A stretch of DNA of 64,000 bases from Flavobacteriia bacterium 40-80 (lineage in GTDB: Bacteria > Bacteroidota > Bacteroidia > Flavobacteriales_D > Crocinitomicaceae): NCBI GenBank assembly GCA_001899145.1, contig MKVF01000022.1, positions 1 to 64,000 on the forward strand. The letters run 5' to 3'. Positions 45,693 to 47,191 of this stretch are shown in pieces. A program made the position numbers and the translations under genes. The notes below the pieces were generated by a model. It ran no database searches and was not told where the DNA came from. It saw only the letters and a list, made by a program, of their open reading frames with translations. Position 1 is the first letter of the stretch, and each line of letters starts with the position of its first letter.

Positions 45693-45733
45693 AAAATGAT
45701 TTGTTTTTAAATACAATAATGCAACTTTTTTGC

Positions 45734-45741
45734 CAAATTTA
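45734..45741 (-). promoter_or_regulatory. -7 promoter element (TAAATTTG) of the TlpA-like gene
   Basis: An exact TAnnTTTG match on the minus strand in the 67-base gap shared with the divergent ECF sigma gene, about 40 bases before the TlpA ATG. Both promoters must be squeezed into this gap. Confidence 0.5.
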
Positions 45742-45759
45742 GAGTCTATTGTATTGGTT

Positions 45760-46296
45760 ATGGATGATAAAACCTTAATTGCCGGGTGTGTTAAGGGAGA
45801 TGCCAAAGCTCAAAAAGCGTTGTTTGATAAATATGCTTCAAAAATGTTGGTGGTCTGTTTACGCTATTTTCCCAATAAAATGGAGGCGGAAGATATTTTA
45901 CAGGACGGATTTGTAAAAATTTTCCACAAAATAGTTGATTTTAAAGAAGATGGATCTTTTGAAGGCTGGATAAGACGAATATTTGTCAATACAGCTTTAG
46001 ATGAGCTTCGGAAAAGAAAATCCATTTTTGAAGAAAAGGATGTGAGTGAATTTTCCTATAAGATCACTAATAATCAAAGTACAGATGGTGATCTGAGAGC
46101 AGACGATTTATTGAAAATGGTTCAGACGCTTCCGGATGGTTACCGGATTGTCTTTAACATGTTTGCTATAGAAGGATATTCACATAAGGAAATAGCTGAA
46201 ATTCTCAATATTTCCGAAAACACTTCCAAATCACAATTTTTCAGAGCGAAAGCACTTTTAAGAACACAATTAGAAAAAATTGATTTTGAGAGATAA
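45760..46296 (+). CDS. ECF-type RNA polymerase sigma factor
   Basis: A 178-residue sigma-70 family protein of the extracytoplasmic-function type. Region 2 is at about residues 10-85 (ALFDKYASKMLVVCLRYF, EAEDILQDGFVKIF, then GWIRRIFVNTALDELRKRK) and region 4 at about 118-175 (LPDGYRIVFNMFAIEGYSHK, EIAEILNISENTSKSQFFRA). It directs RNA polymerase to a small set of promoters. I start it at ATG 45760. Its 3' end overlaps the next gene by 11 bases, so the two are translationally coupled, as is usual for a sigma factor and its membrane anti-sigma. Confidence 0.93.
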   Translation: MDDKTLIAGCVKGDAKAQKALFDKYASKMLVVCLRYFPNKMEAEDILQDGFVKIFHKIVDFKEDGSFEGWIRRIFVNTALDELRKRKSIFEEKDVSEFSYKITNNQSTDGDLRADDLLKMVQTLPDGYRIVFNMFAIEGYSHKEIAEILNISENTSKSQFFRAKALLRTQLEKIDFER

Positions 46297-47191
46297 AGAT
46301 TACATAGAAGAACTTTTTTCCAGGTCACTTGGTGAGCACCAGACAGGTGTACGGCCGGAGATCTGGTCTGCCATTCAGTCAAAAATGGCAGCTGCTTCTG
46401 TTGCATCGACTGCTGCGACAACTGCTTCTAAATCCTTATTGGTAAAAGGTATAATAGGTTTGGGTTCCCTGGCAGTGATAGGTATAGGTTCTTACATTTA
46501 TTTTAATAATAATGAGAATTCCATTTCCGGCAAGCAGGTTCATGAAAATGAAAAGCAGGTAATTTCTTCTGAAGATCCTGCTGTTAAGGATGAAAATACA
46601 ATACAATCGGATAATACATCTTCCGGGGAATCAGTAAAAGAAGATCGTCATCTTACTTATTTTCCTCCGGTTGTTACTAAAGAGTTTTCAAATAGCAATA
46701 CTACAGCTCACACTTCTACTTTAGAAAACAAAGTTGAAAATCCTGAAGCACCTGTCCAATCGGGTGTTTCGGTTTCCAACGAAGAAATAAAAAAAGAGCT
46801 TGGTGTTGCTAAAGAAGAAATAAAACAGGTTGTTTCACCCGGAACGTCTAAAGAACCGGTGAATACCACAACTGCAACTACCACCGGAAAATCAAAACAA
46901 GGTTATGTAAGACCGTGGAATGTTGCTAATGTGTTCACACCGAACAATGATGGAATAAATGACTTTTTCTTCCTGGAAACGGGAGGAGAGCTGAAAGAAT
47001 TTTCCATTACAATTTTAGATAAAGATAATAAAGTGGTTTACCGCTCGGAAGATACCAGATTCAAATGGGACGGTACAAATTACCTGACCGGAGAAAAGGT
47101 TCCGGATGGTAATTACTCTTATATTATATATGCTGTTGATCTGAATGGTGAGCTAATCAAGCAGTTTAATCTACTATACATCACCAAATAG
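46286..47191 (+). CDS. Putative anti-sigma factor with gliding-motility-type C-terminal domain (CHU_C-like)
   Basis: About 301 residues: a cytosolic N-terminus (about 1-45, RDKDYIEELFSRSLGEH and VRPEIWSAIQSKM) of the form seen in membrane anti-sigma factors, one transmembrane helix (about 52-74, VKGIIGLGSLAVIGIGSYIYF cut here), a Ser/Thr/Glu-rich spacer of about 130 residues, and a C-terminal domain of about 90 residues beginning NVFTPNNDGINDFF with VYRSEDTRFKWDGTN and GNYSYIIYAVD. That last part matches the gliding-motility/T9SS type B sorting domain (CHU_C). There is no ATG; TTG 46286 (or 46280) is the likely start, overlapping the sigma gene. Calling it anti-sigma is inference from coupling and topology. 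Confidence 0.78.
   Translation: MRDKDYIEELFSRSLGEHQTGVRPEIWSAIQSKMAAASVASTAATTASKSLLVKGIIGLGSLAVIGIGSYIYFNNNENSISGKQVHENEKQVISSEDPAVKDENTIQSDNTSSGESVKEDRHLTYFPPVVTKEFSNSNTTAHTSTLENKVENPEAPVQSGVSVSNEEIKKELGVAKEEIKQVVSPGTSKEPVNTTTATTTGKSKQGYVRPWNVANVFTPNNDGINDFFFLETGGELKEFSITILDKDNKVVYRSEDTRFKWDGTNYLTGEKVPDGNYSYIIYAVDLNGELIKQFNLLYITK

Follow-up and report, generated by a model that had tools for sequence, protein, structure and literature searches.

An ECF sigma factor paired with a putative Dma-type anti-sigma factor that ends in a type IX secretion cargo tag

To our knowledge, little is known about how Bacteroidota match the production of type IX secretion system (T9SS) cargo to its export. 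In Flavobacteriia bacterium 40-80 an ECF sigma factor gene is overlapped by a gene for a putative membrane-anchored anti-sigma factor whose outer end resembles the sorting tag of T9SS cargo, which raises the question of what such a tag does on a regulator. The locus lies in a stretch of 64,000 nucleotides (contig MKVF01000022.1, positions 1 to 64,000), analysed as a whole and called here the window. An earlier note on this DNA had proposed that the membrane protein senses T9SS state or cargo and releases the sigma factor; what the note observed is confirmed, and its interpretation is partly supported. The features are as follows.

45720..45747, forward strand: putative autoregulatory ECF promoter, TGCAAC-N18-GTCT (pattern match at 45721-45747)
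45760..46296, forward strand: ECF sigma factor gene, 178 aa (Pfam Sigma70_r2 and Sigma70_r4_2)
46286..47191, forward strand: putative anti-sigma gene with T9SS tag, TTG start (46280 as alternative), overlapping the sigma gene
46292..46402, forward strand: cytosolic head with two predicted helices at residues 5-41, numbered from 46280 (AlphaFold2, low confidence)
46433..46507, forward strand: membrane helix, residues about 52-76 (AlphaFold2 and hydropathy)
46508..46909, forward strand: disordered periplasmic linker, residues 77-210 (AlphaFold2)
46919..47188, forward strand: type B T9SS sorting domain (CHU_C/TIGR04131) without RWG (profiles, AlphaFold2)

The sigma ORF matches Sigma70_r2 with an E value of 4e-15 and Sigma70_r4_2 with 8e-18. 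Both ORFs are as originally described, with an overlap of 11 nt if the second gene starts at the TTG at 46286 and 17 nt if it starts at the TTG at 46280, which is also possible. Among 17 aligned homologous ORFs, whose starts were picked mechanically, 15 start at the position of 46286. The 67 nt between the sigma ATG and the start (45692) of a divergent thioredoxin-like gene contain the promoter. The neighbours are ordinary, with RpiB, RNase R, a response regulator and the thioredoxin-like gene on one flank and tRNA-Cys, FolB and GltX on the other. A PorP/SprF gene next door is usual for T9SS type B cargo though not universal; none adjoins the pair, the 7 neighbouring ORFs scanned having ordinary functions except for one without a match. 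SprA is encoded in the same genome.

The AlphaFold2 model of the second protein, built from 18 sequences, gives two head helices at residues 5-18 and 26-41 (pLDDT about 51-57) and a further helix at 55-76, modelled at low confidence; hydropathy places the membrane helix at 52-70. The linker of about 130 residues (77-210) has no structure in the model and is followed by a well-predicted beta-sandwich from about residue 211 to 303 (blocks at 86-96 from residue 221 on). CHU_C matches residues 214-285 with an E value of 5e-15 and 55.9 bits (cut-off 27) and TIGR04131 matches with 42.3 bits (cut-off 35), both matches ending about 13 positions before the profile end. About 50 residues precede the sole hydrophobic helix, as placed by hydropathy and AlphaFold2, unlike in an N-terminal Sec signal peptide. 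Of 37 proteins, 27 carry more positive charge on the N-side of the helix than on the C-side, 9 carry as much and 1 carries less, and K56, at the helix, is invariant across the 18 aligned sequences; an orientation with the head in and the tag out fits both. AlphaFold2, hydropathy and the charge bias thus agree with the proposed order of head, single helix, flexible spacer and C-terminal domain. No FecR or STN domain was matched in Pfam up to an E value of 1.

We searched 59 genomes for full-length homologues of the second gene. A sigma gene adjoins each of the 24 homologues examined in relatives, and in all 25 loci, window included, the gene immediately upstream is a sigma homologue (L023 is cut by a contig end). 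The sigma orthologues, 49-68 % identical, lie upstream of each full-length second-gene homologue checked. Within the family and order, 11 further loci have the same pair. A homologue standing without the sigma gene, on which the proposed pairing could have failed, was found neither there nor among the 24 relatives. Cultured relatives with the pair include Fluviicola chungangensis (L317) and Crocinitomix catalasitica (L330). Recurrence of the identical pair in 24 of 24 relatives rules out chance or artefact as its origin. Full-length matches occur in at least 32 of 295 genomes of the class; among the genomes listed with such a match, 25 fall outside the family of the window and belong to 9 families.

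A genome scan with the sigma alignment gave 589 relatives, of which the best 80 were retained. Among these 80, the sigma gene is followed by a tag-bearing anti-sigma gene in 36 cases, by one with another long tail in 15, by a short one in 25 and by none or a contig end in 4; contig ends cut L325 and L392 in the short class and L345 in the tag class. In the 36 tag-bearing loci the distance from sigma to anti-sigma gene ranges from -23 to +22 nt, the linker between helix and tag has at least 120 residues in every homologue, and 0-4 residues follow the tag in all 36, the cut L345 included. A PKD-like module precedes the tag, by eye, in many of the 11 further pair loci; Pfam confirms the module for L163 and L330. 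The tail labels are clustered on the sigma tree, with 8 changes compared to a mean of 41 after shuffling, and the window falls in a supported set of 24 tree rows, 23 of which are tag-bearing and 1 of which has no called partner.

The anti-sigma heads of the three classes are related. The head of the tag class aligns with that of the long class at an hhalign E value of 2e-11 and with that of the short class at 5e-12. With an HMM of the tag-class head, every one of the 15 long-class proteins outscores the best of the shuffled heads (at least 3.8 bits compared to 2.4), and 22 of 24 short-class proteins outscore theirs (5.2 bits), L347 and L379 falling below. Of 6 of the 15 long-class tails put to Pfam, 4 match an outer-membrane protein barrel over the cut-off, L366 matches weakly and L351 has no match; of two further long-tailed loci, L171 has a match and L168 none. 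The two short-class proteins put to Pfam gave no outer domain. This short class (L343, L347, L350 and others, from Mucilaginibacter, Pedobacter and Cytophagales) often has the same N18 promoter.

The predicted layout matches that of the Dma-type (dual membrane-spanning) anti-sigma factors of Bacteroidota, with the barrel apparently swapped for a cargo tag. In Dma2 the order of parts is described as head, transmembrane helix, disordered tether and terminal barrel (PMC13088901), and Dma1 was the subject of a PNAS 2024 paper cited in PMC12045153. Shared with Dma are the sigma gene next door, an N-terminal anti-sigma head (putative here), one transmembrane helix, a long disordered tether and a structured C-terminus. 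The likeness to Dma1 and Dma2 themselves is one of description, whereas the homology found here is to heads of barrel-tailed anti-sigma factors (the hhalign E value of 2e-11). The outer end of Dma is a beta-barrel and here it is a CHU_C beta-sandwich that mimics a T9SS type B tag; the Dma output is vesiculation and polysaccharide utilization locus (PUL) genes and here the predicted output is T9SS cargo. The adjacent sigma factor, of group ECF21 in Dma, is here an ECF factor by its Pfam regions 2 and 4. The earlier note could not name the device from known systems; it can now be placed in the Dma-type layout, the outer end of which varies between barrel, CHU_C and tails without a recognised domain. 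This suggests that Dma-type anti-sigma factors are a modular layout with an exchanged outer end (barrel, cargo tag, others).

The tag differs from cargo tags at a defined place. The RWG motif is present in 55 of 65 cargo tags compared to 0 of 66 anti-sigma tags; since three of the 65 rows (C57, C62 and C63) are second-family anti-sigma factors (L182, L170 and L178), all without RWG, the cargo fraction becomes 55 of 62. Position by position, the tryptophan is found in 56 of the 65 rows of the cargo set and none of the 66 anti-sigma tags, the arginine in 59 of 65 and 5 of 66, and the glycine preceding the last strand in 58 of 65 and 17 of 66. Most anti-sigma tags retain FTPNxDGxND, WxG, GxY and the last strand. 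In the tags of L013, L018 and L029 (3 of 18 aligned) TPNxDGxND is gone as well with the fold pattern retained, a further step away from cargo. As in T9SS type B cargo, PF13585/TIGR04131 stands at the C-terminus, with a PKD module before it in some members; cargo has an N-terminal signal peptide, whereas the anti-sigma factor has a cytosolic head and a membrane anchor and lacks RWG. The domain is thus of the T9SS/gliding type over both profile cut-offs, as first proposed, but it is not an ordinary export signal.

In F. johnsoniae five type B motifs are each reported to be required for export of an SprB-tag fusion (PMC12618676, the text of which does not give the motif letters), and we infer that RWG belongs to one of the five. 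We read the tag as a mimic of cargo that may be, or may formerly have been, recognised by the T9SS and would itself be poorly exported. The loss of RWG could also be a sign that the domain no longer takes part in the T9SS. Type B tags may accordingly have been repurposed for sensing, and the defined motif loss may mark a surface critical for export.

All 24 orthologous sigma genes, window included, have GCAAC upstream, and the spacer to the second element is 18 in the 19 sigma orthologues measured. Within the best 80 of 589 sigma relatives, the N18 arrangement is found in 34 of the 36 tag-bearing loci, and it also stands before related sigma genes whose anti-sigma factors have no CHU_C. In raw counts the pattern GCAACYTN{15,17}GTCT is not enriched (6 matches in the own genome compared to 15 for the backwards pattern, and 170 compared to 266 in 20 relatives), so the case for the promoter rests on the placement of the matches. 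Of the 170 matches 150 were considered, and those fetched were 30 automatic loci plus the sites with GCAACYT[TA], without most sigma self-promoters; at least 18 matches outside the 150 did not enter the analysis. Among 83 further pattern matches we analysed those with YT[TA] and the automatic loci, omitting a 28-nt site (G049:C58) that repeats another.

In the own genome 3 of the 6 matches are in promoter position, before the sigma gene and two CHU_C genes, and the other 3 are inside ORFs. One of these CHU_C targets (L047) has the 27-nt spacing and the other (L052) a 26-nt spacing; the latter probably answers to another sigma factor. For comparison, 44 CHU_C matches occur in this genome among about 3,000 genes, a gene number that is estimated. 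At the automatic loci, the pattern with the true spacer lies before a gene in 15 of 30 cases, and lengthening the spacer by 5 lowers this fraction to 2 of 30. Where the genome lacks the pair, the true pattern gives 5 of 30. An initial placement control gave 50 of 100 before a gene compared to 2 of 30 for the lengthened spacer, the 100 being partly preselected and the 30 not.

We considered one generic ECF promoter serving everything and rejected it on spacing and preceding base, which separate a 26-nt class from a class of 27-nt sites preceded by T (T-27), the form that belongs to the sigma factor under study. In genomes without a close pair 12 of 40 pattern sites are promoter-placed, 7 of the 12 before CHU_C genes, and 10 of the 12 are of the 26-nt class; the CHU_C genes behind such sites suggest that another sigma factor drives some cargo. 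This class is present in both genome sets and resembles the promoters of paralogous sigma genes (N17 in L177 and L182). Spacing alone is not diagnostic, since the paralogue L180 has a spacer of 18.

The T-27 sites before genes number 24 in 21 pair-bearing genomes (the own genome and 20 relatives) compared to 0 in 15 genomes without the pair, meaning genomes, mostly of other families, in which no close tag-bearing orthologue was found. Three of these (G045, G049, G038) have a related sigma factor with a barrel or long tail, and two others (G042, G058) are congeneric with G052, in which a diverged full-length match occurs. The 24 sites comprise 3 sigma genes (most sigma self-promoters were not fetched), 11 CHU_C cargo genes and 10 others. 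The 10 others among the 21 non-sigma targets, two of them cut by contig ends, have no recognised CHU_C and encode apparently secreted proteins. At equal rates, the chance that none of the 21 non-sigma targets falls in the set without the pair is about 1e-5, by a hand calculation that ignores genome size and kinship. The split by T and spacing was made after the data had been seen, and as a check we therefore ran it on 13 further genomes, all of them pair-bearing, with no new genome lacking the pair. The 20 sites found there, compared to 8 for the backwards pattern, stand before 9 sigma genes, 4 CHU_C cargo genes, 2 type A-like genes (by eye) and 1 other gene, with 1 free site without an ORF and 3 inside ORFs. 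One of the 4 CHU_C sites (L313) is flagged as inside an open frame because its own frame extends upstream.

Genes for T9SS type B cargo recur behind the predicted sigma promoter, mainly a single choice-of-anchor-L gene in each genome. All 10 target proteins tested contain a choice-of-anchor-L domain, and 9 of the 10 match TIGR04131, L145 falling below the cut-off; the tenth target, L047, is truncated in its locus, and its CHU_C assignment comes from the genome search. Among the matches listed, 14 of the 44 choice-of-anchor-L genes in 14 genomes begin behind a 27-nt site, and they are spread over 13 of the genomes, a fraction that is not an unbiased rate as these genomes were chosen mostly for an already known site. 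The fourteenth, G006, has a near-match only. The 14 sites are preceded by T in 11 cases and by A or C in L102, L134 and L145. One choice-of-anchor-L target (G010 C4, L104) has an end that resembles a type A tag. The occurrence of T-27 sites before type B cargo genes supports the T9SS link that the earlier note had suggested. T9SS machinery is not prominent among the targets, with one GldM-family gene and one PorP/SprF gene behind cargo targets. The former (L091:990-2744, reverse strand) follows a CHU_C cargo gene with a T-27 promoter at a distance of 106 nt, and the latter follows its cargo gene at 2 nt. Two families of small, secreted-looking proteins (120 and 148-149 aa) were also observed more than once behind GCAAC..GTCT sites, each in different genomes, one in L083 and L087 and the other in L064 and L136.

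The pairing, the predicted topology, the tag, the candidate promoter with the targets behind it and the loss of RWG are all read from sequence. Taken together, they make it somewhat probable that the pair is a trans-envelope anti-sigma switch tied to the T9SS. At rest, the short cytosolic head would tether the ECF sigma factor to the inner membrane. The long disordered linker would let the cargo-tag mimic reach, and presumably dock on, the outer-membrane T9SS (the ring, SprA or a PorP/SprF-type shuttle). PorP/SprF barrels are reported to bind type B tags (PMC9143113, PMC10202324), which makes such a barrel or the periplasmic ring the likeliest partner. The fate of the anti-sigma factor would depend on whether its tag is docked or has been displaced by genuine cargo, and regulated proteolysis is the likeliest way in which it would be disabled. 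Once free, the sigma factor would transcribe its own operon and a small gene set led by the choice-of-anchor-L type B cargo, matching the supply of cargo to the state of the exporter. The sign could go either way: a vacant receptor may trap the tag and trigger proteolysis, with cargo made when export is idle, or cargo may displace the tag.

A more specific form of the switch, which we put forward tentatively, is that the poorly exportable mimic competes with cargo for a receptor in the periplasm or outer membrane and that receptor occupancy sets sigma activity and through it cargo production. If true, this would be a homeostat in which the synthesis of cargo is tied to the capacity for its export, and the T9SS would have its own counterpart of FlgM-sigma28 with a Dma layout. 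Alternatively, the domain may have been borrowed as a stable Ig-like periplasmic sensor that is off the T9SS and reads some other envelope signal, cargo being merely the output. The complete absence of RWG from the 66 anti-sigma tags, the loss of the last-strand glycine from all but 17 of them with the fold core retained, and the three aligned tags without TPNxDGxND would all fit such a sensor, as would the Foldseek matches of the domain, which are to generic Ig/Fn3/FlgD-like folds, and the existence of related anti-sigma factors without a recognised outer domain. We nevertheless judge it rather unlikely, as the domain is always C-terminal as in cargo, keeps FTPNxDG, WxG, GxY and the last strand, follows a PKD module in some members as cargo tags do, and has T9SS cargo as its predicted output.

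Two other readings seem to us improbable. FlgM, the cytosolic anti-sigma factor of sigma28, is itself exported by the type III secretion system (T3SS), and by analogy the T9SS might pull the outer part of the protein through SprA after a cut at the inner membrane, so that export itself would free the sigma factor. An anti-sigma factor that has a secretion-substrate domain and is paired with a sigma factor predicted to drive later substrates follows the FlgM/sigma28 logic, and the domain is C-terminal, as an export signal requires; the loss of RWG from 66 of 66 tags speaks against it, if RWG is indeed among the five motifs each needed for export of the SprB-tag fusion (PMC12618676). Hardly more credible is a merely indirect cargo link, in which the sigma factor serves envelope homeostasis in general, as in Dma systems, and cargo genes are only one part of a wider surface programme. 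Such a programme could account for the 10 of 21 non-sigma T-27 targets that are other, apparently secreted proteins and for a promoter type common to related sigma genes with other anti-sigma tails, and Dma2 is reported to affect vesicles and PULs (PMC13088901). The recurrent target, however, is choice-of-anchor-L type B cargo, in genomes with a type B-tagged anti-sigma factor.

The favoured switch has partial counterparts in known systems. In FecR-type cell-surface signalling an inner-membrane anti-sigma factor reads an outer-membrane transport machine, using a FecR/STN domain and a TonB receptor; here there is neither, and the putative sensor is a cargo tag. With FlgM-sigma28 the pair shares an anti-sigma factor linked to a secretion system and a sigma factor predicted to make its substrates, but the proteins are unrelated. 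A T9SS example is PorA-PorXY-SigP of Porphyromonas gingivalis, in which a tag-bearing protein is described as acting upstream of the ECF sigma factor SigP, which serves the T9SS (PMC7712824, PMC8265659). PorA is described there as a separate surface protein acting via a two-component system, whereas here tag and anti-sigma head form one protein, and SigP is reported to regulate machinery genes such as porK-porV, whereas the targets predicted here are cargo. Among the titles and abstract openings listed from the openly licensed PMC literature, we found no earlier description of a sigma/anti-sigma pair with a T9SS type B tag. Since the sensor carries the tag of the cargo and the predicted output is cargo, a two-gene test is possible.

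A second, separate sigma clade is also followed by anti-sigma factors with CHU_C-like tails, in the own genome (G000:C4:125382, L177) and in L178, L182 and L170. Their tails are likewise without RWG; the match is weak in the own copy (PF13585 E value of 0.009, below the cut-off) and clear in L182 (40.7 bits). The L182 protein (L182:1663-3228, reverse strand) apparently has three tandem heads, a membrane helix, two PKD stretches and CHU_C, and might hold several sigma molecules.
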